IMG/VR virus record: IMGVR_UViG_3300045999_013278
Span: 1 to 64,000 of that record
From: a virus
Direction: 5' to 3' (one strand)
Length of the DNA: 64,000 nt
In this document: positions 2,095 to 57,296 of the stretch, piece by piece
Layout of the letters: each line of letters starts with the position of its first letter
Numbering within the stretch: the stretch's first letter is position 1
Translations under genes and position numbers: made by a program
Notes under the pieces: model-generated
Databases searched by the model: none
Told to the model about the DNA's origin: nothing
What the model saw: the letters and a program-made list of their open reading frames with translations, nothing else

Positions 2095-2256
2095 TTAAGT
2101 CCACGCCGCACCACTACATACAACCCGAAAACCGATATTGTAGCTGCCGTAGTCGAGATTGAAGTAGTCACGATAAGCAGAACGGCAATTTTCAGGATTG
2201 CTGCCCCACGAACCACCGCGCAGCAGCCTTCTGTGTAGACGCTTTATTCTATCCAC
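2095..2256 (-). pseudogene. C-terminal fragment of a DGR target (FGE-sulfatase/C-type lectin fold) carrying a variable region
   Basis: The frame ends LLRGGSWGSNPENCRSAYRD...IGFRVVCSGAAWT. RGGSW..NP..CRSA and IGFRVV are the hallmark C-terminus of FGE-sulfatase-domain proteins that serve as DGR targets in cyanobacteria. From 2208 to 2131 most residues that vary in such targets use NNC or NNT codons (GGC, AGC, GAC, TAC, TTC, CTC, TAT), as expected when AAC/AAT template codons have undergone adenine mutagenesis. The frame is open only from about 2304 and has no ATG; GTG at 2256 is a possible start. It overlaps the end of the upstream gene in another frame, so most of the target gene is missing. 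No template repeat or reverse transcriptase is visible in the window. Confidence 0.75.
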
Positions 2257-2609
2257 TCTAAAAACTCTATTTTCATCTTTACAGATTGCTTGAACAGTCT
2301 GTAGTCAAACTTAGATGACAGCATCAGGTTCGATTCATAGGGCTTTATGCCTTTACACCAACTAACAGATATGTGAGGATATTTGTTAGCGCAGGGAATA
2401 TGATCAGGAAGTTTGACAGCTACAGCTTGTATTTTGCCGTTCCAAGCTTCATATAAAGTTGTGGCTTGGAACTCTAAACCCTCCCACTCTTTCCAGTCTT
2501 GGCGGCCAACCCCAAACTGGAGTGTTGTATGGTGGGGACTCCCCACGGGGTAGAGTGGGGAAATTATTAGGGGCGACTGGATAACACCCCACAGGATACC
2601 GTTAGTCAT
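2244..2609 (-). CDS. Putative 2H phosphoesterase
   Basis: A 121-residue protein with two H-x-T/S motifs: PHHTTLQFG near residue 28 and PHISVSW near residue 78. This pair is the catalytic signature of the 2H phosphoesterase superfamily (LigT, CPDase-like, Acb1), which cleaves or ligates 2',3'- or 3',5'-linked nucleotides. The start ATG overlaps the stop of the upstream gene (ATGACTAA), so translation is probably coupled. Phage 2H proteins include anti-CBASS cyclic-nucleotide phosphodiesterases and RNA-repair enzymes; the sequence alone does not decide between them. The spacing between the motifs is short (~50 residues), so this would be a compact member. Its 3' end overlaps the DGR target fragment. 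Confidence 0.55.
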   Translation of the reverse strand: MTNGILWGVIQSPLIISPLYPVGSPHHTTLQFGVGRQDWKEWEGLEFQATTLYEAWNGKIQAVAVKLPDHIPCANKYPHISVSWCKGIKPYESNLMLSSKFDYRLFKQSVKMKIEFLEWIE

Positions 2610-2967
2610 CTAAAGACACTAACGAATATACAATCCTTGTTTTTATGTCGGTACTTTGTTCTGTTAGTGGTAAGTCCACTAACTCGGAATCAAACAAACT
2701 GACTTTGATTCCTAAGTTTGTTAACTTAATTAAAGTCAGTCCCGTGACTGAAGAGGTTATTATTTGATCGCCTATGTTTAAGGCGATTTTAATCGTGCGG
2801 ATTATATCTTTATCATCGTAACAATATTCTATCTCTTCGACAATTAAATAATTTCCTTCTTCCAAATAAAGGTCGAAAGTATTACCTTGACTTTCTCGCT
2901 CGTAGGAAAAGTCGGGATTAATCCCGAAAAGTTCGTTAAACTCTTGTGAAATAAAAGAATAAATCAT
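2602..2967 (-). CDS. Hypothetical protein, translationally coupled to the 2H gene
   Basis: About 121 residues from the start MIYSFISQEF. This start has a good Shine-Dalgarno (TTAGGAGTAACA), while an upstream in-frame ATG at 3006 runs back into a structured stretch and has none. The protein is acidic with alternating hydrophobic strands (NYLIVEEIEYCYDD). I recognise no family. Its stop overlaps the start of the 2H phosphoesterase by 8 bp. Confidence 0.65.
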   Translation of the reverse strand: MIYSFISQEFNELFGINPDFSYERESQGNTFDLYLEEGNYLIVEEIEYCYDDKDIIRTIKIALNIGDQIITSSVTGLTLIKLTNLGIKVSLFDSELVDLPLTEQSTDIKTRIVYSLVSLDD

Positions 2968-3001
2968 TGTTACTCCTAAGTGGGTGTATGTAAAGTGACT
3001 T

Positions 3002-3059
3002 CCCACGACTACCGGGGTGGTAGTTTCGGACGGTAGTCAGCCGTCCATCATCAGGTGGG
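3002..3059 (-). ncRNA. Candidate structured RNA: outer stem enclosing two hairpins
   Basis: An outer stem CCCAC/GTGGG (3002-3006 with 3055-3059) encloses two perfect 6-bp hairpins, ACTACC/GGTAGT (3008-3024) and GGACGG/CCGTCC (3028-3046). This would fold as a three-way junction. It lies between two minus-strand genes, about 35 nt upstream of the start codon at 2967, where it could affect processing or translation of the downstream genes. No known riboswitch class is recognised. Confidence 0.45.
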
Positions 3060-3065
3060 TTGAAG

Positions 3066-3386
3066 CTAAAAAGTAAAAGGTTGCCAGCCCGGCTTTATCC
3101 TACGCCTTTTGAGACTTTCTTCTTCTTCTTTTAATTGTTCCTCTAAGAAATGTCTGGAATAAGTATCCATCCCGTCTTCCATTACAAAGGTGTCGCCCAA
3201 GGGGGCGCGTTCTATTGGAGTCAGTGGTGTCAGCCACTCATGATCATGATCCACTTTTCTCAACTCCCCAGCAAATTTTAAGCTGGGTGACTTGTGCTGT
3301 CCTATGTAATCTTTATTACTTACTGTTACGTAAGCATACGAAATCAAATGATAAGTATATCCATCTACTACCAGTATTGTTTCCAT
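3066..3386 (-). CDS. Hypothetical protein, 106 residues
   Basis: Starts METILVVDGYTYHLISYAYV and ends with a strongly charged helical region (EEQLKEEEESLKRRR). I recognise no family. It is part of the minus-strand run of small genes between 3.7 and 2.2 kb. The ribosome-binding site is weak (AAAGAG). Confidence 0.6.
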   Translation of the reverse strand: METILVVDGYTYHLISYAYVTVSNKDYIGQHKSPSLKFAGELRKVDHDHEWLTPLTPIERAPLGDTFVMEDGMDTYSRHFLEEQLKEEEESLKRRRIKPGWQPFTF

Positions 3387-3478: not shown

Positions 3479-3706
3479 CTAAAAGACATCTACAACAGGA
3501 CTGCTGTAGCCATAACGGGCTGACCAGCTTAAACCTGACCATGTAGTGACACGGGTGATTTTCCCGTTTTTCACTTCAAGTCTTGCTTGTTCTGTGGGAA
3601 CTTCACCAAAGTGAAACTCGTCATTTTTGGGAAAATCAGCACCCAGTAAAGTCTTGAGTGCTTCAGCACTTTTCCAATTAGCGATTATAAATTCTTTAAC
3701 GTCCAT
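3479..3706 (-). CDS. Hypothetical protein, 75 residues
   Basis: MDVKEFIIANWKSAEALKTL then a short beta-rich C-terminus (RLEVKNGKITRVTTWSGLSW). No family recognised. AGGA lies 4 bases before the ATG and a sigma70-type promoter lies just upstream. Confidence 0.6.
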   Translation of the reverse strand: MDVKEFIIANWKSAEALKTLLGADFPKNDEFHFGEVPTEQARLEVKNGKITRVTTWSGLSWSARYGYSSPVVDVF

Positions 3707-4367: not shown

Positions 4368-7300
4368 TTACCAAAAACCTGCCGGCGCAGTTTGGGGATG
4401 TTCCCACATATTTACCTGACGTGGCGCGAACTCATATCCTAAAATTGTCATTTCTATGATTTTTGGCCTATCACCGTCACTTAAATTTACGGTTATTCCC
4501 GCCGTCAAACATGATGTTAAAAATTCTTTCCCCTGAGTGCCGTCACGCAAAAATACCTCCAAAACACACCCTGTTTTTTGCATAATTCTAAGGAAATGGT
4601 CAGTCCCTCCCGTCTGTTTGTTTGTGAGAACTTTATTTTGGATGATTTTGCCTGACGCTATGCGATCGCCATATTCCCCCTCAAAGGCTACTATTAAATT
4701 TAATTCATCTAAGCACTTTTTAACTTCATTTAAGCTTAGGACTGCTTTGCAAGTATTACTGACCTTACCGTTATATTCACCCTTAGTTACGTTAAAAGCT
4801 AAAGGTTTATATTCCAATACTGAAGTTTGGATTAGGGTATTAAACTTGGTTAATTCTTCGTTAAACACAGTAATGTCATGACTTTCCCCATTTTCATCAT
4901 TCACCATGAGAAATACCATTAAGTCGCCATTTCTTGTCGTAAAGGGCTTGTAATTCGTGACAATTCCCGTTACCCATTCACTTTGGGGTAAGTTTAAATT
5001 TAAGTTTTGGAACGGGTTGACGCTTACGACCGTCCCGATCAGATCCTTCTCCACTTCTACTATTTTTTCCGTAGTCCTTAAAGTAGGTTGGGGAAAATTA
5101 AAATCCTTACTCACAAGGTAAGTTTTAAATTCTTCTACGTTTAAAGTTACTTCCCCCTCTCCCCCGTTTTTTAATGCCCGACGTTTTAGTGTTCCCTTAA
5201 AATAACTTAAGGCTTTAAATAAAACCACTAAACTTTCTTCTGGAAAAATTTCATCCCCAAAAAACCCTAAATTATTTAAGCTAATTACTACACCTTTATC
5301 ACCACCACTTCTTAGGCAAAAATCCACAACGCCACTATAAGGGTAATTCTTAACTATTTCCTCCGCAACGCTTACGCCCAGTCCCTTAATATTAGCTAAA
5401 CCTAAATTAATTCCCTCTGGAGTTAGGAAACATTTAACCCTTAATTCTGCCCACATTTTAGGGAGGATTATATTAAAGTGGCGTTTTGTATTTTTAATCC
5501 ACTCTGCTGACTTCTCAAATGATTTTGAGGACACGGTAATTCCGGCTGCCCAAAATTCCCTCGGTGCATAAACCTTATAAAATGCACTAATTAAGGCTTG
5601 ATACCCATAAGCATAAGTGTGGGATTTATTAAAACTGTACTCAGCCGAAGCTTTAACTTCTGACCATAAAGCTAATGCTAATTCTTCACTTACCCCGCTA
5701 TGAGTAATTGCGCCCCCCACAAATTTTTCCTCTTGCGCGGGCATATCCTTAATTTTTTTCTTCCCAATTATTTTCCGTAAATCATCAGCTTCAGCTAAAG
5801 AATACCCTGAAAGTTTTTGAGCCATAAGCATAATTTCCTCTTGGTAAAGCATAATCCCAAAAGTATCTTTAAGCACTTCATCTACGATGGGGTGAACCTT
5901 TGGAGTACCCAAAACCCTGTTTCTGACATAAACCCTATCGCTGCCACTGTCTAAACATCCTGGACGATTTAGAGCGTTTACCGCCGATAAGTCTTCAAAG
6001 TTATTTGCCCCTATTTCTCGCAATAAATTTGAAGGAACTTTACCCTCCATCTGGAATACGCCAAAAGTATCCCCCTGTTTTAACATGGCGTAAACTTCGG
6101 GATAATTCCCTAACTCATTAATTACAGGAATTGTACAATTACTTTCTTTAAGTAATGCCTCTATTTCTAATTCTTGGGATAAACCTGTAAGTCCTAGAAC
6201 GTCAAATTTAATAACGCCCATTTCCTCAAGTTCGTCTTTATCGTAAACGGTGGTAATTTTTTCCTCGCCGCCGTCCCAGACTAGGGGAACGTAATCCTGT
6301 AATTCTTCCGAAATACAAATTCCGCCCGCATGAACTCCGCTTTGTCTTTCCCGTCCCTCTATAAATTGTGCTGCATGAGTTATGGCTATTCTTTCCTCTT
6401 CTGATAATTCATCGGAGTGGAAAAATTTATAAAATTCCCCACCCTCATCCACTAATAATTTACTAATTTTTGGAGGAACGCCCCTAATAGTTTTGAAATA
6501 CCTCTTGGATATTTCCGTAGCCTTACGCCAACTTAAGTTGTGTGTCCTGAAGGAATCTGCTAAGGCACTGCCAGCCGCACTTTTAGTGACTGTACCGACG
6601 GCTGCAACATTGTACCGACCCCATCTTTCCCTTAAATGTTCCACTACGGCATCCTTCCCTTCGCCGTTCATATCCGTGTCAATGTCGGGCATTGCTTTAC
6701 GCCCAGGATTGAGGAATCGCTCGAACATTAGCCCGTGTTTGATTGGGTCAATATCAGTAATTTTTAAACAGTAAGCCACAATTGACCCAGCCGCAGAACC
6801 CCGTCCTTTCCCAACTTTATGGCCAATTCCCCTCACAAAACTACAAAAATCTTCCACGATTAAAAAATAATCTGCGAAACCCATTTCTGAGATTACTCTC
6901 ATTTCATAGTCCAGTCGTTCCCATAACCCAGGACTTAAAGCTTCGGGAGGGTAACGGTTAAACATCCCGTCAGCGCACTTTTGCTTAAATATTGCCTCGG
7001 CATTGGGAGAAAATTTAATTGGCTTAACAACGTTAAATAAGCTGTAATCCTCAAACTTATCCGCGATTTTTAGGGTATTATCTAGGGCTACGTTAATCTC
7101 CTCTGACGATAACCCAGAATTGTCATAGAAGTGTTGGAAAATTTCTTCCCTCGTTTTTACATACTCCTCACCGGTGTACTCGAAGTTATTAAGCCTTTCC
7201 GATCCTAAAGTGGCATTACCCTTCATGCCTATACTTAACGCGAGTGTTTGACTAAACCAATCTTCCTTACCCAAGAAGTGAGCGTCGTTGGTAATTATTC

Positions 7301-7910
7301 TCGCAACATTTAATTTTTTACCTAACTCGACAATTTTTTGAGTATGACTTGGCCAACTTTTCCTTATGCCGTAGTGGCAGTGCAATTCTAGATAAAGCCT
7401 GTCCTTAAAGACGGCGCGGTATTTAATGATCCACTTCTTAGCCCTAAGCTCATCTCCCGCGCTAAGGCTTTGGTTTAGCTCGGAGCTAATGCAGCCACTT
7501 AAAATTATCAACCCAGCATTATGGGAGAAAATTTGAGCATTAGTAACACAAGGCTTTTTAGCCTTCCCGCGTACTTGCTCTAAACTGGCTATCGTGCTTA
7601 AACGGCATAAGTTTTTGTAACCCTCTAGGTTAATTGCAATAGCGGTTAAGTGGTAATAGTCTTTTCCGTTGGCGGTTTTTTCCCCACCCTCTTCCATTAC
7701 GTATAACTCGCAGCCTATCAGGTGCTTAATCCCCTCTTTTCGGCACTCCTTAAATAGCTCAAAAGCCGCAGACATACTCCCATGATCGGTAATGCAAGCT
7801 GCGGGTAAGCCCTGTACCTTACTAAACTCAACTAATCTCTTAACGTCTATGTCACCATCAAAGTTTGAGCCTCTGCGGGTGTGGTTATGAAGAGATATGT
7901 ACTGCTGCAT
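4368..7910 (-). CDS. dnaE: DNA polymerase III alpha subunit (complete, intein-free)
   Basis: 1,180 residues, full length for bacterial DnaE. The N-terminal PHP domain keeps its likely metal ligands: HNH at 8-10, ITDHGS near 42, an LHCH motif near 178 and NDAHF near 208. The polymerase palm has PDIDTD near 406 and KFDVLG near 568, giving the catalytic aspartates. GKGRGSAAGS, SGVHAGG and NALNRPG are standard DnaE motifs. A helix-hairpin-helix (IKGLGVSVAEEI) lies near 843 and an OB-like fold near 980-1010. An intact PHP site suggests possible intrinsic proofreading. Host cyanobacterial DnaE is often split by an intein; this one is a single chain. It has its own promoter and terminator and would be the replicative polymerase of the element. 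Confidence 0.96.
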   Translation of the reverse strand: MQQYISLHNHTRRGSNFDGDIDVKRLVEFSKVQGLPAACITDHGSMSAAFELFKECRKEGIKHLIGCELYVMEEGGEKTANGKDYYHLTAIAINLEGYKNLCRLSTIASLEQVRGKAKKPCVTNAQIFSHNAGLIILSGCISSELNQSLSAGDELRAKKWIIKYRAVFKDRLYLELHCHYGIRKSWPSHTQKIVELGKKLNVARIITNDAHFLGKEDWFSQTLALSIGMKGNATLGSERLNNFEYTGEEYVKTREEIFQHFYDNSGLSSEEINVALDNTLKIADKFEDYSLFNVVKPIKFSPNAEAIFKQKCADGMFNRYPPEALSPGLWERLDYEMRVISEMGFADYFLIVEDFCSFVRGIGHKVGKGRGSAAGSIVAYCLKITDIDPIKHGLMFERFLNPGRKAMPDIDTDMNGEGKDAVVEHLRERWGRYNVAAVGTVTKSAAGSALADSFRTHNLSWRKATEISKRYFKTIRGVPPKISKLLVDEGGEFYKFFHSDELSEEERIAITHAAQFIEGRERQSGVHAGGICISEELQDYVPLVWDGGEEKITTVYDKDELEEMGVIKFDVLGLTGLSQELEIEALLKESNCTIPVINELGNYPEVYAMLKQGDTFGVFQMEGKVPSNLLREIGANNFEDLSAVNALNRPGCLDSGSDRVYVRNRVLGTPKVHPIVDEVLKDTFGIMLYQEEIMLMAQKLSGYSLAEADDLRKIIGKKKIKDMPAQEEKFVGGAITHSGVSEELALALWSEVKASAEYSFNKSHTYAYGYQALISAFYKVYAPREFWAAGITVSSKSFEKSAEWIKNTKRHFNIILPKMWAELRVKCFLTPEGINLGLANIKGLGVSVAEEIVKNYPYSGVVDFCLRSGGDKGVVISLNNLGFFGDEIFPEESLVVLFKALSYFKGTLKRRALKNGGEGEVTLNVEEFKTYLVSKDFNFPQPTLRTTEKIVEVEKDLIGTVVSVNPFQNLNLNLPQSEWVTGIVTNYKPFTTRNGDLMVFLMVNDENGESHDITVFNEELTKFNTLIQTSVLEYKPLAFNVTKGEYNGKVSNTCKAVLSLNEVKKCLDELNLIVAFEGEYGDRIASGKIIQNKVLTNKQTGGTDHFLRIMQKTGCVLEVFLRDGTQGKEFLTSCLTAGITVNLSDGDRPKIIEMTILGYEFAPRQVNMWEHPQTAPAGFW

Positions 7911-22651: not shown

Positions 22652-23965
22652 TTAATTTAATTTAATTCTCGCTACGATTGCCAAAGATCGTCTACTGAGT
22701 TGATCAAGTGATAGACTCAACCTTCCCGATACTTTTCTTAAAATATTAGCTGCTCCGTTCAAATCTGCATTTACGAATGAACCATCGCCCGATTCATACA
22801 ATCCACGCTTAACACGCTTTCCTGATGCTTTCCACCCGTCTGGTTTTTGACCATAAACAGGTAGGGAGTCTCCATCGAGAAAACTAGCTTTTGATGTATA
22901 AGCCTCTTCGGTTTCTTGAAATCTAATACCGTGTAAATCGCATAGTTGCATCAGCCGGGTTTTGAGTTTACCTAACGGCATTTGGACAAACTTTTGATTA
23001 TTAATTCGCCCCATGTTAGCGTTAGATTTAAAACCCTCGTTCCAACCAATAACTAATGTACCAATGCCGTATTTTAAGCAATGATCAATAATTAATTTTG
23101 CAGCTTTATTAACACCATCCCGCATTTGATGGTTACGTTTACGGGTTACACAGTCTAACCAATTGTCCCAATAATCCCCCGGTTTCCCTTCTTTTCGTGT
23201 TGATACTTTTTTATTCCAAAGCTGGTTCATTGACTTCATCGAACGGGCATCAATCAAGAGGGAATTACCCAATGTATCAACACAAGCTGCTAAATTATCA
23301 GCCGTTCCCAAGTCAATAGATAGAGCTTGATTAATGTCTAAATCATGCTGTTGTTTCTCAACTTCGTAAGACATCTCTAGATAAAAAGCACCGTTTTTAG
23401 GTAGGATAGTAAACTCCTTAACATGAGCTATATCTAAATTTGACGGCATCGGTAGAAAAAATTCAGAAATTCCAAACCATCTTTTAACCGTTAGTCCCAA
23501 CGAAAATCTAAGTTGTCCATTAACTAGAGTTGGTTTCTGTCCTCCACTATGAGGATAAGCAACCTTGAAAAGTTTAGAACCTGTTAGATAGCCGGGTACT
23601 TTAGGCTTAAAGTGTAATTGTCCTTTGATAAACAAAGAACGTAATTCTTTAAAAGATTTGAAGGCTTCTGTTACAGATAATAAAGTTTGTTGTGCGGGGA
23701 TAGATGGCATCGATTGAGCAACCATAGTTTTAGACACTGAAGGCTCGTAAATCAAGTCGAACTTACCCGTTAACAACTTTCCAGTTTTTAAAAATGTTTG
23801 TCTAGCGAAATAAACACCACTGTTATACAGCTTCCCTGACTGCTGACAGAGATATTCTAATACTGCCTTTGTTTCATTATCGGGAGACAACAAAACCTGT
23901 TGTACTCCCATTGCTTTTTTATTTTTTGCCACCAAGTTACGATTTATGAGAAGTTGACTTCTCAA
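22652..23965 (-). CDS. tnpB: TnpB RNA-guided nuclease (IS605 OrfB)
   Basis: 437 residues. The RuvC-like catalytic residues are in SIDLGTADN (Asp near 222), IGWNEGF (Glu near 310) and NADLNGAANI (Asp near 400). The region that normally holds the CxxC zinc ribbon reads YTSKASFLDGDSLPVYGQ, without cysteine pairs, as in a cyanobacterial TnpB branch. TnpB is a guide-RNA-directed nuclease that favours retention of the element; the guide (omega) RNA would be encoded across the 3' end of this gene and the adjacent element end (about 22600-22720). The frame is intact, so it may be active. Confidence 0.9.
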   Translation of the reverse strand: MRSQLLINRNLVAKNKKAMGVQQVLLSPDNETKAVLEYLCQQSGKLYNSGVYFARQTFLKTGKLLTGKFDLIYEPSVSKTMVAQSMPSIPAQQTLLSVTEAFKSFKELRSLFIKGQLHFKPKVPGYLTGSKLFKVAYPHSGGQKPTLVNGQLRFSLGLTVKRWFGISEFFLPMPSNLDIAHVKEFTILPKNGAFYLEMSYEVEKQQHDLDINQALSIDLGTADNLAACVDTLGNSLLIDARSMKSMNQLWNKKVSTRKEGKPGDYWDNWLDCVTRKRNHQMRDGVNKAAKLIIDHCLKYGIGTLVIGWNEGFKSNANMGRINNQKFVQMPLGKLKTRLMQLCDLHGIRFQETEEAYTSKASFLDGDSLPVYGQKPDGWKASGKRVKRGLYESGDGSFVNADLNGAANILRKVSGRLSLSLDQLSRRSLAIVARIKLN

Positions 23966-24020
23966 GAATAATTGATTAAGCTAGTATTGTCAATAGCTAT
24001 CAAGAAAACAACAAGAGAAT

Positions 24021-24422
24021 ATGTTAACGCAAGAAGACTATAAAACCCACAACCACGTTAAATTCCTGGTTAATTACCATTTTGTTTGGATACCTAAACG
24101 ACGGAAAAAAGTTTTAGTAGGAGAAATAGCAACAAGAGCGAGACAGATTTTTGCTGAACTGGCTATAGAAAAAGGTTGGGATATTTTAGCTTTAGAAGTA
24201 GCTCCAGACCATATCCACTTATTTATTAGCGTTAAGCCCACAGATACCCCACATTTAGTTATCAAGGCATTTAAAGGTCGTTCTAGCTTCTACTTGAGAA
24301 AAGAATTTCCCCAATTAAAAAAACTACCGTCTCTTTGGACAAGTAGTTATTTTATAAGCACCGCAGGGAATGTTAGTAGCGAATCCGTGAGGAGATATAT
24401 TGAAGACCCGCATCACGGTTAA
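24021..24422 (+). CDS. tnpA: IS200-like Y1 transposase TnpA
   Basis: 133 residues, full length. HUH motif DHIHLFI near 63-69 and catalytic tyrosine in SVRRYIED near 126. This enzyme cuts and joins single-stranded element ends. It is divergent from tnpB with 55 bp between them. Confidence 0.93.
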   Translation: MLTQEDYKTHNHVKFLVNYHFVWIPKRRKKVLVGEIATRARQIFAELAIEKGWDILALEVAPDHIHLFISVKPTDTPHLVIKAFKGRSSFYLRKEFPQLKKLPSLWTSSYFISTAGNVSSESVRRYIEDPHHG

Positions 24423-53912: not shown

Positions 53913-56900
53913 ATGTTTAACGAAGTTTATGCTCCGTCCGCAAAACCTGTGTTTTACCGCACTTATTCAAGAAGTAAAAAAGAGACATGGCAAGATGTTT
54001 GTGACCGGACAATTACGGCATTAATTTCTCTGGGAAAATTAACTAAGACTGAGGGTGACTTAATTAGGCGATCGCAGGAAGAATTTAAAGTATTAAGTAG
54101 TGGAAGATGGCTGTGGTGTGGTGGTACAGATTGGTTAAAAAAGCCAGAAAACGTTTACGGTGCTTATAATTGCTCATCCACAAACATTACAGACTGGGAA
54201 GCATTAAGCTTAATGATGAATTTGGCTATGCAGGGATGCGGGACTGGCGCAGTGTTGGAAGATAAATATATTAAAAATCTTCCTATTATAAGGAATAATT
54301 TAAGCGTAGAGATTGTTAATTTACCTGGCACTGTAAAAAAAGAAAACAGGCACGATGACACTATCGTTAGCGGCGCGCGCGGACAAGTTAACATTTTTGT
54401 TGGAGATAGCCGTAAGGGTTGGGTAGACTCTTACCTTACACTTCTAGAGTTGTCTTCAAGGGAAGATTTAGCGAAAAACGTTAAAGTTTTCGTTTGCTTA
54501 GGTGCGGTAAGAAGTAGTGGGGAAAAACTTAAAGGCTTTGGCGGAAAAGCTAATCCCATAGCTTTAGCTGGGATGTATGGAAAATTAGCTAAGATTTTAA
54601 ACGGGGCTATAGGTCGCCAACTTACCGCTTTAGAGTTATGCAAGTTAATTGATGAGGCTAGTGTTACAATTGTAGCCGGAAATATAAGAAGGTCGGCGGG
54701 CATGAGACAGGGTTCGCCAGAAGATATAGAGTTTGCGACCGCTAAAGATAACTTGTGGCAACAAGACAATGAGGGTAACTGGAAAATAGATCCTGACAAA
54801 GATTGCTTAAGAATGGCTAATCATACGTTAGTTTATCACCGTCGCCCAACTTTAGAAGAGGTCAAAAAAAGTGTGCAAAAACAATTCCACAGCGGTGAAG
54901 GTGCAATTCAATGGGCTGGCGAAGCGGTAGCTAGAGCTAACGTGGATTTACTCTCTAATAAGGATTTAAAAAATAAGTTTTTAGACTTATACAATAAGTC
55001 CTTAAATGAAGCATTAAATTTTTTAGCTAAGTTAGGGCTGTTGAGTATTGCTGAAGCGGAAGAAAGGATGTCTAGGTACGCTACCAACCCTTGTTTTCGT
55101 GGGGATATGAAAATATTAACTAAAGATGGTTACAGAGCATTCGAGTCGTTGGACGGTCAAGATGTAGAGATAATTAACGCAGAGGGCAATGTTTCTCTAT
55201 CTCATATATGGTGTTCAGGTGAAAAGGAAACCGTAAGGGTAGGAATGGGGGCTTATGGAAGTATTCACTGCACTCCAGATCACTCTTTTTTAAATATTGA
55301 TGGCAAAAGAGTTGACGCATCTGAATTAAGACCGGGTGACAGATTAATGCCATTCTTAAAAGTGCCAGAGCATAAGAATAAAATATTCGTTTGTTTAGGA
55401 TTTGTCCAAGGTGATGGTCAATTATCTGATTTATCTGATTTGAAAGGCGACAAAAAAGGGCAACTAGGTGTTGCTGTCAACATAGGTAAAAAGGATCAAG
55501 AAATCCTAGAATTTTTCCAAGAAACGGAAGGTTTGAAATGCAAGAAACATGGCGAAAGGCGTATTTATGTTAACGGACTGAATGAGTTAATTGACAAATA
55601 CGACTTTTCTCTTTACACCCTTCCATTTCGCGCACTCCCATCCACTTATAAAGGCTGGGACTTAGACATAAAAGCATCGTTCTTGTCTGGACTTTATTCA
55701 GCTAACGGCAGTGTTCTAAAAAACGGCAGAGTGACCTTAAAGACGACCTGTAGAGAAATGGGCGAACAGGTTGTTGATTCTTTAAAAGCAGACTTTGGCA
55801 TAGAAGCTTATATTACCATCAACCGACCGTCAACCGTATCGTTTCCTAACGGTATTTACCAATGTAGAGAAAGTTACGACGTAAATATTCAGCAATACAA
55901 AGGGAGACTTTCATTCTTCAACCAAATCAACTTTATTCATTCGTACAAGATTGATAAATTTGCCAAAACTCTCTTGGCAACCTCTCCCTCAATATCGGTA
56001 GTAGAAAAACAAGGGATTGTAAAAGTTTATGATTTTTCTGAACCAATAACGCACTGGGGTGTAGTAGAGGGCTTTGTCGCGCATAATTGCGGAGAAATTG
56101 TGGGTAACAATTTTTTCTGCGATCTCGCTGAAGTACACCTAAACACGCTAGATGGAAAAGACTTAAATAGTTTAAGAGACTCATTTAGGGCTGCGGGTTT
56201 AATTGCAGCCGTACTATTAAATGACAAATTCCCTGACGAGAGATATCAAAAATCTAGGGAGTTAGACCCTATTGTTGGCGTTAGCTTTACTGGCTTATTT
56301 GACTTTTTCGTTAATTTATTTGGGGAAAGTTGGTTGCGCTGGTGGGAAGGCGGCAGGGAGGAATACTCAGACAGAGACTTTATCACATCAAAGGATTTAG
56401 AAAATTGGATAGAAACATTCCCAGATGAGGTAGTTGAAATTATTAACGATTGGAATAAAAGCCAAGGGAAATTTGCTATAAAACACCCCGGCGTTTGCAA
56501 CGGACTACTTTTTAAAGCCTTGGAAGAATTTTACCTGACGCTTTTTAAAGATGAAGCCCATAAAGCAGTTTGGGAATACTGTCATGCACATTCGCTTAAA
56601 CGCCCCAATAGATGTACTACGGTGCAACCAAGCGGGACTAAGAGCCTCTTAACTGGCGCGTCTCCTGGCTGGCATCCTCCAAAAGCTGCTAGATTTATCC
56701 GTCGGATTACTTTTGGCAGAGACGACGCAGTAGCTTTAGCTTGTATGGACTATGGCTACGGTATTATTCCTTCCCAATCTTGTAAAGATGCTGAGGGTAA
56801 TTTATTAAACGATCCATTTGACCCAAGAGTTACGGAATGGTTGGTAGAAATTCCCACAAAAACTAGCTGGGCGGATAACATCGGGGAAGATGTAGATATA

Positions 56901-57296
56901 AGCAAATTTAGCGCAAAAGCCCAATTTGACTTTTACCTACAAGTACAAAATTACTACGCAACTCACAATACTTCAGCAACTTTGGAAATACGTCAAGAGG
57001 AAATTGGGGAATATGCACAACTCCTTTACCAGAACATCCAAAATTGTGGCGGATATAGTTCTGCGGCACTTTTGGCAAGATTTGACAGTGGCGAAACTTT
57101 CCCTCGTCTGCCATTTGAGCCAATTTCTAAGGAAAAATATGAAGATTTATGGGGAGAGGTTTTAGCTCGCCGTAAAAATAGTAGTTTTGATAAACTTTTG
57201 CAAATAAGGTTAAGCGCAGCGGAAGTGGAAGATTCTCAAGTTGGCCCGGCCGGATGCGACTCGGATAAGTGCTTATTTAAGGAAGTGGGCAAATAA
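53913..57296 (+). CDS. nrdJ: Class II (B12-dependent) ribonucleotide reductase with intein
   Basis: 1,127 residues including a 332-residue intein (394-725). After splicing the host protein is about 795 residues. It matches monomeric class II ribonucleoside-triphosphate reductases: SSGRWLWCGG near 65, YNCSSTNITD near 88, NP/CGEIVGNNFFCDLAEVHLN across the splice junction and TVQPSGTKSLLTGASPG near 900. The active-site motif NPCGEI is rebuilt only when the intein leaves, so splicing is required for activity. The enzyme reduces ribonucleotides with adenosylcobalamin and supplies dNTPs for DnaE. It lies as a plus-strand gene inside the minus-strand virion block and has the same type of downstream terminator and dispersed element as dnaE. 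Confidence 0.95.
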   Translation: MFNEVYAPSAKPVFYRTYSRSKKETWQDVCDRTITALISLGKLTKTEGDLIRRSQEEFKVLSSGRWLWCGGTDWLKKPENVYGAYNCSSTNITDWEALSLMMNLAMQGCGTGAVLEDKYIKNLPIIRNNLSVEIVNLPGTVKKENRHDDTIVSGARGQVNIFVGDSRKGWVDSYLTLLELSSREDLAKNVKVFVCLGAVRSSGEKLKGFGGKANPIALAGMYGKLAKILNGAIGRQLTALELCKLIDEASVTIVAGNIRRSAGMRQGSPEDIEFATAKDNLWQQDNEGNWKIDPDKDCLRMANHTLVYHRRPTLEEVKKSVQKQFHSGEGAIQWAGEAVARANVDLLSNKDLKNKFLDLYNKSLNEALNFLAKLGLLSIAEAEERMSRYATNPCFRGDMKILTKDGYRAFESLDGQDVEIINAEGNVSLSHIWCSGEKETVRVGMGAYGSIHCTPDHSFLNIDGKRVDASELRPGDRLMPFLKVPEHKNKIFVCLGFVQGDGQLSDLSDLKGDKKGQLGVAVNIGKKDQEILEFFQETEGLKCKKHGERRIYVNGLNELIDKYDFSLYTLPFRALPSTYKGWDLDIKASFLSGLYSANGSVLKNGRVTLKTTCREMGEQVVDSLKADFGIEAYITINRPSTVSFPNGIYQCRESYDVNIQQYKGRLSFFNQINFIHSYKIDKFAKTLLATSPSISVVEKQGIVKVYDFSEPITHWGVVEGFVAHNCGEIVGNNFFCDLAEVHLNTLDGKDLNSLRDSFRAAGLIAAVLLNDKFPDERYQKSRELDPIVGVSFTGLFDFFVNLFGESWLRWWEGGREEYSDRDFITSKDLENWIETFPDEVVEIINDWNKSQGKFAIKHPGVCNGLLFKALEEFYLTLFKDEAHKAVWEYCHAHSLKRPNRCTTVQPSGTKSLLTGASPGWHPPKAARFIRRITFGRDDAVALACMDYGYGIIPSQSCKDAEGNLLNDPFDPRVTEWLVEIPTKTSWADNIGEDVDISKFSAKAQFDFYLQVQNYYATHNTSATLEIRQEEIGEYAQLLYQNIQNCGGYSSAALLARFDSGETFPRLPFEPISKEKYEDLWGEVLARRKNSSFDKLLQIRLSAAEVEDSQVGPAGCDSDKCLFKEVGK
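55092..56087 (+). other. Intein with LAGLIDADG homing endonuclease domain
   Basis: Residues 394-725 of the reductase. It starts CFRGDMKILTKDGYRAFESL (block A, Cys1) and has HCTPDHS (block B) near 452. It ends VVEGFVAHN followed by Cys of the C-extein (blocks F/G). Two dodecapeptide-like motifs, CLGFVQGDGQL near 495 and FLSGLYSANGSVL near 590, mark a LAGLIDADG endonuclease. Insertion is within NP^CGEI, the catalytic loop, a typical highly conserved target. Confidence 0.95.

Follow-up and report, generated by a model that had tools for sequence, protein, structure and literature searches.

Type I hammerhead ribozymes are known from bacteria and prophages, and in the available sections of Perreault et al. 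(2011; PMC3088659) it was already proposed that they process long phage transcripts into mRNAs of single-gene or operon length. According to the same sections, three tandem arrangements were cleaved in vitro and one in E. coli. The CUGAnGA motif and the definition of type I are given in the available text of PMC10085705, where one or two nucleotides between residue A9 and stem II are allowed in known alignments. Among synthetic elements, the insulator RiboJ ends in a hairpin that, in the available text of PMC6206723, is suggested to raise mRNA stability or to help expose the ribosome-binding site. A review (PMC6155905) describes the role of prokaryotic hammerheads as still open.

Here, an element of this kind appears to be carried by a cyanobacterial virus between two small genes, where it would cut the message that both share. 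It lies at positions 3002-3059 of the window, that is, the whole stretch of 64,000 nucleotides analysed (positions 1 to 64,000 of the IMG/VR record IMGVR_UViG_3300045999_013278).

Architecture and class of the element

Read 5' to 3' on the minus strand, the element is composed of the segments CCCAC CUGAUGA U GGACGG CUGACUA CCGUCC GAA ACUACC ACCCC GGUAGU C GUGGG. The hammerhead residue numbers used below (C3-A9, G12-A14, A15.1, U16.1 and C17) are those which we take to apply to the window copy. The following features can be differentiated:

3066-3386, minus strand: upstream gene (106 aa), with its stop codon UAG at 3066-3068, 11 nt ahead of the ribozyme core
3055-3059, minus strand: 5' strand of stem I, CCCAC (from sequence and fold)
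3048-3054, minus strand: hammerhead core CUGAUGA, C3 to A9 (from sequence)
3047, minus strand: extra U between A9 and stem II (from sequence)
3028-3046, minus strand: stem II, GGACGG (3041-3046) with CCGUCC (3028-3033), closed by loop II CUGACUA (3034-3040)
3025-3027, minus strand: core GAA (G12, A13, A14), followed by A15.1 at 3024
3008-3024, minus strand: stem III, ACUACC (3019-3024) with GGUAGU (3008-3013), closed by loop III ACCCC (3014-3018)
3007, minus strand: C17, immediately before the bond predicted to be cut (3007/3006)
3002-3006, minus strand: 3' strand of stem I, GUGGG, which is the first five nucleotides of the downstream product
2996-3000, minus strand: AGUCA, able to pair over 5 bp with the loop II segment UGACU (3035-3039) in a predicted tertiary pseudoknot
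2980-2984, minus strand: CCCAC, complement of GUGGG; possible hairpin at the 5' end of the downstream mRNA after cleavage
2973-2977, minus strand: Shine-Dalgarno sequence AGGAG of the downstream gene
2602-2967, minus strand: downstream gene (121 aa), with its AUG 39 nt past the predicted cleavage site

The original prediction had described an outer 5-bp stem closing over two perfect 6-bp hairpins in locally GC-rich DNA, and each of these points was borne out: CCCAC/GTGGG joins 3002-3006 with 3055-3059, the hairpins occupy 3008-3013/3019-3024 and 3028-3033/3041-3046, and the G+C content is 62.1% against 37.9% in the window, a value reached by 0.07% of the 58-nt windows. It had also proposed a three-way-junction RNA between small genes. 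The structured character and the position between small genes stand, whereas the strand does not, for on the minus strand the residues of the junction form the catalytic core of a hammerhead; consequently, the element is a self-cleaving ribozyme motif and goes beyond a mere three-way junction.

Regarding the class, the minus strand carries (i) CUGANGA, as CUGAUGA at 3054-3048; (ii) GAA followed by A15.1 pairing with U16.1 (3027-3024 with the U at 3008), this A-U pair (A 3024, U 3008) closing stem III; (iii) a nucleotide other than G at position 17, namely the C at 3007; and (iv) three stems meeting at the core, with stems II and III closed by loops and stem I open. On these grounds, the minus-strand element almost certainly adopts the fold of a type I hammerhead ribozyme. 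As a motif the hammerhead is near certain; as a catalyst it is a prediction. The usual start of stem II at position 10.1 directly after A9, which is not strictly defining, is absent in the window, where one extra U intervenes at 3047; apart from it, the core residues are canonical. One relative (L005) has no insertion at this point.

The claim that stems so placed are improbable by chance fared differently according to the measure. The 58-mer folds at -26.6 kcal/mol on the plus strand (none of 200 dinucleotide shuffles as low) and at -22.7 kcal/mol on the minus strand (1 of 200 as low). By folding energy alone, however, it is not unique, given that 7 of 2205 minus-strand 58-mers of the window, sampled every 29 nt on a grid that did not include the exact element, are as low. 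The claim does hold for the combination of the hammerhead core with three stems: the real window contains one match whose stems reach 5, 6 and 6 bp or more, while 100 dinucleotide shuffles of it, both strands included, gave none of that quality and two weak ones. With the strict finder, no other hammerhead was found in the window or in the last 8.7 kb of the contig (L217), and no tRNA or tmRNA was found in the window. A possible extension of stem I (GCUU/AAGU) was discarded, since it is not conserved and competes with the pseudoknot.

Relatives and a probable second partner for the stem I strand

Related copies were collected with pattern scans and a structure finder, yielding at least 199 rows, of which at least 173 were distinct, at least 172 passed the filters and at least 137 were left after clustering. 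Of the 137 copies listed, five come from bacterial genome contigs and the rest from viral records, and a few may be spurious, as is the case for a few rows of an earlier list of 103 rows, 79 of them distinct (e.g. the second matches in L031, L075 and L079). Two of the scan patterns fixed GUGGG (one as GUGGGAAAC) and, in consequence, GUGGG heads (the first nucleotides of the downstream product) are over-represented; a third pattern, whose matches are listed, left stem I free and fixed the outer pairs of stem II. The finder required paired stems and an A-U pair at 15.1/16.1, and excluded G at position 17. Pairing percentages are thus partly a matter of construction, and the real signal is the variety of pair types.

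Among the 137 listed copies, the nucleotide between A9 and stem II is U in 92 and G in six, and is lacking in 39; position 17 is occupied by C in 118 copies, by A in 18 and by U in one (G being excluded by the finder); and A15.1-U16.1 occurs in all 137, as the finder demanded. Twelve non-redundant copies were picked by resemblance as cyanophage-type, a label for which a named cyanobacterial host exists only in the case of phage CL131. In all twelve of them, pairs 2, 3 and 4 of stem II are paired, with three pair types each. The covariation search that the original prediction had suggested therefore supports a structured RNA. Compensatory stem changes are present among homologues; unpaired substitutions, which had been named as evidence against the prediction, do occur in two inspected copies, namely L004, with one mismatch in stem II (visible in its sequence, the strict finder omitting this copy), and the second copy of CL131, with one in stem I. 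As to the pseudoknot, a complementarity of at least 3 bp between loop II and the strand following stem I was found in 118 of the 137 listed copies, compared to 65.7±4.7 in 1000 permutations; in the window, the UGACU/AGUCA contact between stems I and II is predicted from complementarity.

By Blast, the element was found in the cultured Aphanizomenon phage vB_AphaS-CL131, at the gp142-gp141 junction (89.1% identity over 84% of the query, E 2e-14). In this first copy, GUGGG is matched by CCCGC in stem I and by CCCAC downstream. A second hammerhead-like copy lies around 8240 on the minus strand of the same phage (L002), where the base responsible for the stem I mismatch (GCAGU versus GCCGC) spoils the complementarity with an ACCGC further downstream as well. 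Neither "hammerhead" nor "ribozyme" occurs in the available main text of the CL131 genome paper (PMC6293099).

The downstream complement of the stem I strand is not peculiar to CL131. In the window, the predicted GUGGG/CCCAC hairpin amounts to -4.9 kcal/mol (first 27 nt of the product) and, because it reuses the stem I strand GUGGG, the hairpin and the ribozyme fold are mutually exclusive. At least four Watson-Crick pairs counted from product nucleotide 1 can be formed in 86 of the 137 listed copies, compared to 41.3±4.6 (maximum 58 in 1000 rounds) when tails are permuted. In the minimum-energy fold of the first 40 nt of the product, nucleotide 1 or 2 is paired in 114 of the 137 listed copies versus 95.8±4.2 in 30 rounds of swaps. 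All these statistics are to be read bearing in mind that the relatedness of the copies was only partly removed. In the cyanophage-type copies, GUGGG followed after 11-19 nt by CCCAC occurs in 11 of 12 (it is missing in L086), and as they have GUGGG heads only, CCCAC represents conservation there, not covariation.

It could be argued that this is an ordinary phage hammerhead in which the downstream complement has no role, the pairing being a by-product of common ancestry, of G+C content and of the conservation of pseudoknot nucleotides. The CC of CCAC does overlap the pseudoknot partner; swaps that ignore G+C content and head type already account for roughly half of the pairings seen (41.3 of 86); and swaps within the same contig are weak (13 of 26 own pairs versus 9.0). 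Besides, the strict helix of four pairs from nucleotide 1 is absent in 51 of the 137 listed copies, among them 35 of the 50 with heads other than GUGG and GCGG, and rare heads without a matching complement include those of L105, L112 and L121. Against this explanation, 85 of 135 copies pair with their own tail, versus 23.1±4.3 (maximum 38 in 2000 rounds) in GC-matched swaps between different heads. GUGG heads go with CCAC in 40 of 50 cases (with CCGC in six) and GCGG heads go with CCGC in 31 of 37 (with CCAC in nine). In the class with fixed spacing, both outer pairs are formed in 37 of 61 copies versus 17.4±3.2. Some rare heads also have matching complements: once GUGG and GCGG heads are set aside, 15 of 49 copies pair with their own tail versus 5.6±2.1 (maximum 13) in the GC-matched swaps. 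Examples are ACGGG in L028, L051, L139 and L195 (e.g. ACGG..CCGU in L051), GCGAG..CUCGC in L090, GCAG(G)..CUGC in L080 and AUGGG..CCCAU in L096. On balance, a roleless complement is rather unlikely, and it is probable that the downstream complement has been selected across the family as an alternative partner of stem I.

One further locus (L123) contains six hammerheads within 4 kb whose products begin with GCGGAAGCCAACCAAUCCGC (one with an extra A), so that the same 5-bp 5'-terminal hairpin is possible there before different downstream sequences.

Gene context and predicted course of cleavage

Neither of the two flanking genes could be assigned: the upstream 106-aa gene has no PHROGs family and no Pfam family over the cut-off, and the downstream 121-aa gene has neither a PHROGs nor a Pfam family. 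Nine viral loci proved to have a homologue of the upstream gene, and in all nine a hammerhead directly follows it (in L004, with the stem II mismatch), although some of these ribozymes are identical (L006 and L008; L009, L010 and L011). A further copy besides this one is present in L007. For the downstream gene, a homologue was found at a single locus (L003, on the same contig as L012), and by inspection a homologue of the window's 75-aa gene (3479-3706) comes after the ribozyme in L004 and L006. The gene located 3' of the ribozyme varies, then, among relatives while the ribozyme persists.

Elsewhere in the window, the following were observed: (i) a phage protein like the alpha subunit of DNA polymerase III (4368-7910, minus strand; PHROG 405, E 2.2e-236); (ii) by inspection, an IS200/IS605-like element at 22652-24422, with a TnpB-like frame (437 aa, minus strand) beside a TnpA-like one (133 aa, plus strand); (iii) also by inspection, a large open reading frame resembling a ribonucleotide reductase interrupted by an intein (53913-57296, plus strand); and (iv) an isolated 53-aa frame (2095-2256, minus strand) like the C-terminal part of an FGE-sulfatase domain, the remainder of the gene being absent (Pfam PF03781, E 0.00044, under its cut-off). 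C-terminal ends of this kind are typical targets of diversity-generating retroelements; such an element at 2095-2256 was discarded, no convincing second copy having been found in the contig.

In the family as a whole, there is a tendency for a stop codon to precede the copy and for a ribosome-binding site to follow it. Upstream frames were analysed in 128 of the 137 listed copies, excluding nine too close to the end of their locus. In 114 of them, an open reading frame of at least 60 codons ends no more than 60 nt from the core. Taking the longest such frame, its stop codon is the UGA of the core itself in 26 of the 114, begins 3-13 nt ahead of the core in 56, and lies elsewhere within the ribozyme in three. 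Among the 128 copies, open frames of at least 60 codons enter the core 32 times in the UGA frame versus 10 and 17 times in the other two. On the other side, a start codon with a Shine-Dalgarno sequence (loosely defined) is found within 70 nt past the cut in 62.8% of the 137 listed copies, compared to 17.8% at random positions. Due to this placement, transcript processing is the most likely role.

The following course of events can be envisaged. The ribozyme would fold as RNA polymerase advances and cut between C3007 and G3006. Of the two mRNAs into which the bicistronic transcript would thereby be split, the upstream one would end in the ribozyme, bearing a 2',3'-cyclic phosphate, and the downstream one would start with a 5'-hydroxyl and have a leader of 39 nt. 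The freed GUGGG would then pair with CCCAC (2980-2984) to give a 5'-terminal hairpin just ahead of the ribosome-binding site, which would hinder re-ligation and may slow decay that depends on the 5' end. We consider it quite likely, as predicted from sequence, that the ribozyme cleaves in the cell, and we give similar credit to the reading of the element as a type I hammerhead in a cyanophage minus-strand transcript, cutting mRNA, with the freed end then forming a hairpin. Whether its purpose is mRNA maturation or stability rather than control of cleavage is an evenly balanced matter.

For the 104-nt precursor, minimum-energy folding with no pseudoknot favours the downstream hairpin (-27.3 kcal/mol) over stem I (-26.5 kcal/mol) by 0.8 kcal/mol, and only 40 of the 137 listed precursors keep stem I in their fold of lowest energy. 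Since the model without the pseudoknot favours the downstream hairpin, one of three things must apply: cutting outruns transcription of the complement; the pseudoknot holds the active fold; or the hairpin is an off-switch. According to the last option, the downstream CCCAC would inhibit the ribozyme, capturing GUGGG if the RNA has not been cut by the time some 22 nt past it have been transcribed, and cut and uncut mRNA would coexist in a ratio set by the speed of the polymerase or the ribosome. Apart from the precursor folds, the frequent location of upstream stop codons on or just before the ribozyme agrees with such a timer, as terminating ribosomes could delay folding. However, 4-nt loop hairpins (GUGGGAAACCAC in 11 and GCGGGAAGCCGC in 10 of the 61 fixed-spacing copies) would leave almost no time for prior cleavage, and the pseudoknot, expected to stabilise the active fold, is missing from the energy model. 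The off-switch is a rather unlikely option, and cleavage followed by formation of the product hairpin is the reading retained here. A pairing of GCUUC with the Shine-Dalgarno region in the predicted uncleaved fold was rejected, because the upstream CUUC is missing in L003.

Annotation and comparison with known systems

The element is not recovered with Rfam. A search of the window at the gathering score missed the hammerhead, and at E 10 the region 2900-3160 gave nothing but a chance snoRNA match. The model RF00163 (Hammerhead_1, cut-off 34 bits) finds nothing in this contig, even with the threshold relaxed to E 10; across five records it is never over the cut-off, with sub-threshold matches in three (best 24.3 bits, E 2.5e-5) despite the canonical cores of the relatives. 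Neither did any of 13 relative loci have a match over the Rfam cut-off, and three bacterial loci carrying hammerheads from the pattern scan gave no Rfam hammerhead match up to E 1. The RAGATH-1 hammerhead (RF03152) weakly matches one relative (L046) below threshold (18 bits versus a cut-off of 56.3, E 3.2) and does not match the window copy. As none of the tested copies is over the cut-off of the Rfam hammerhead models, such elements are probably under-annotated.

The lack of an Rfam match, together with the additional nucleotide after A9 and the stem I mismatch in the second CL131 copy, might be taken as signs of a decayed, inactive remnant. This is very improbable for the window, where all core residues and pairs are intact, and the extra nucleotide is common to 98 of the 137 listed copies. 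A plus-strand three-way-junction RNA, as originally predicted, is hardly credible even though the plus strand folds lower than the minus strand (-26.6 kcal/mol), for the minus strand is the one that encodes the two flanking genes, and the conserved unpaired residues match the hammerhead core solely there.

With the bacterial and prophage type I hammerheads, as presented in the available sections of PMC3088659, the element shares (i) the core and three stems; and (ii) the intergenic position in phages and the several copies flanking genes. A pseudoknot between stems I and II, which occurs in many representatives of all three types, is predicted here too. Unlike them, the records tested here fall under the Rfam cut-off and the window copy has an extra U before stem II; the covarying downstream complement and the upstream stop at or on the core are features not found in those sections. 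More generally, no description of a downstream complement of stem I (PMC3088659 included), or of a stop codon on the hammerhead core, was found in the literature searched, in part available as extracts only and with scarce coverage of subscription journals, by which an absence is not proven.

The hammerhead kind is already known; what this analysis adds is the probable second partner of stem I. This partner, along with the close fit between an upstream stop codon and the ribosome-binding site that follows, makes the idea of mRNA processing specifically testable, and a cultured host-phage pair bearing the element exists in Aphanizomenon flos-aquae and vB_AphaS-CL131. An upstream frame ending on the catalytic UGA, as in the 26 copies mentioned, would let terminating ribosomes time the cut.

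RiboJ offers the nearest parallel to the predicted product: in it, a hammerhead is followed by a 5' hairpin before the ribosome-binding site (PMC6206723, in its available text), an arrangement predicted here as well. But while RiboJ was engineered from a plant-virus satellite RNA and has a separate 23-nt hairpin, the element described here would reuse its own stem I strand, its two folds being exclusive, and it lies between natural phage genes. The chances are about equal for and against many phage type I hammerheads being two-state elements, in which the 3' strand of stem I has two selected partners. If so, the upstream partner would make the active ribozyme and the downstream partner the 5'-terminal hairpin of the cleaved mRNA; cleavage would be irreversible, and the downstream gene would receive a short leader starting in a hairpin, in other words, a natural RiboJ.
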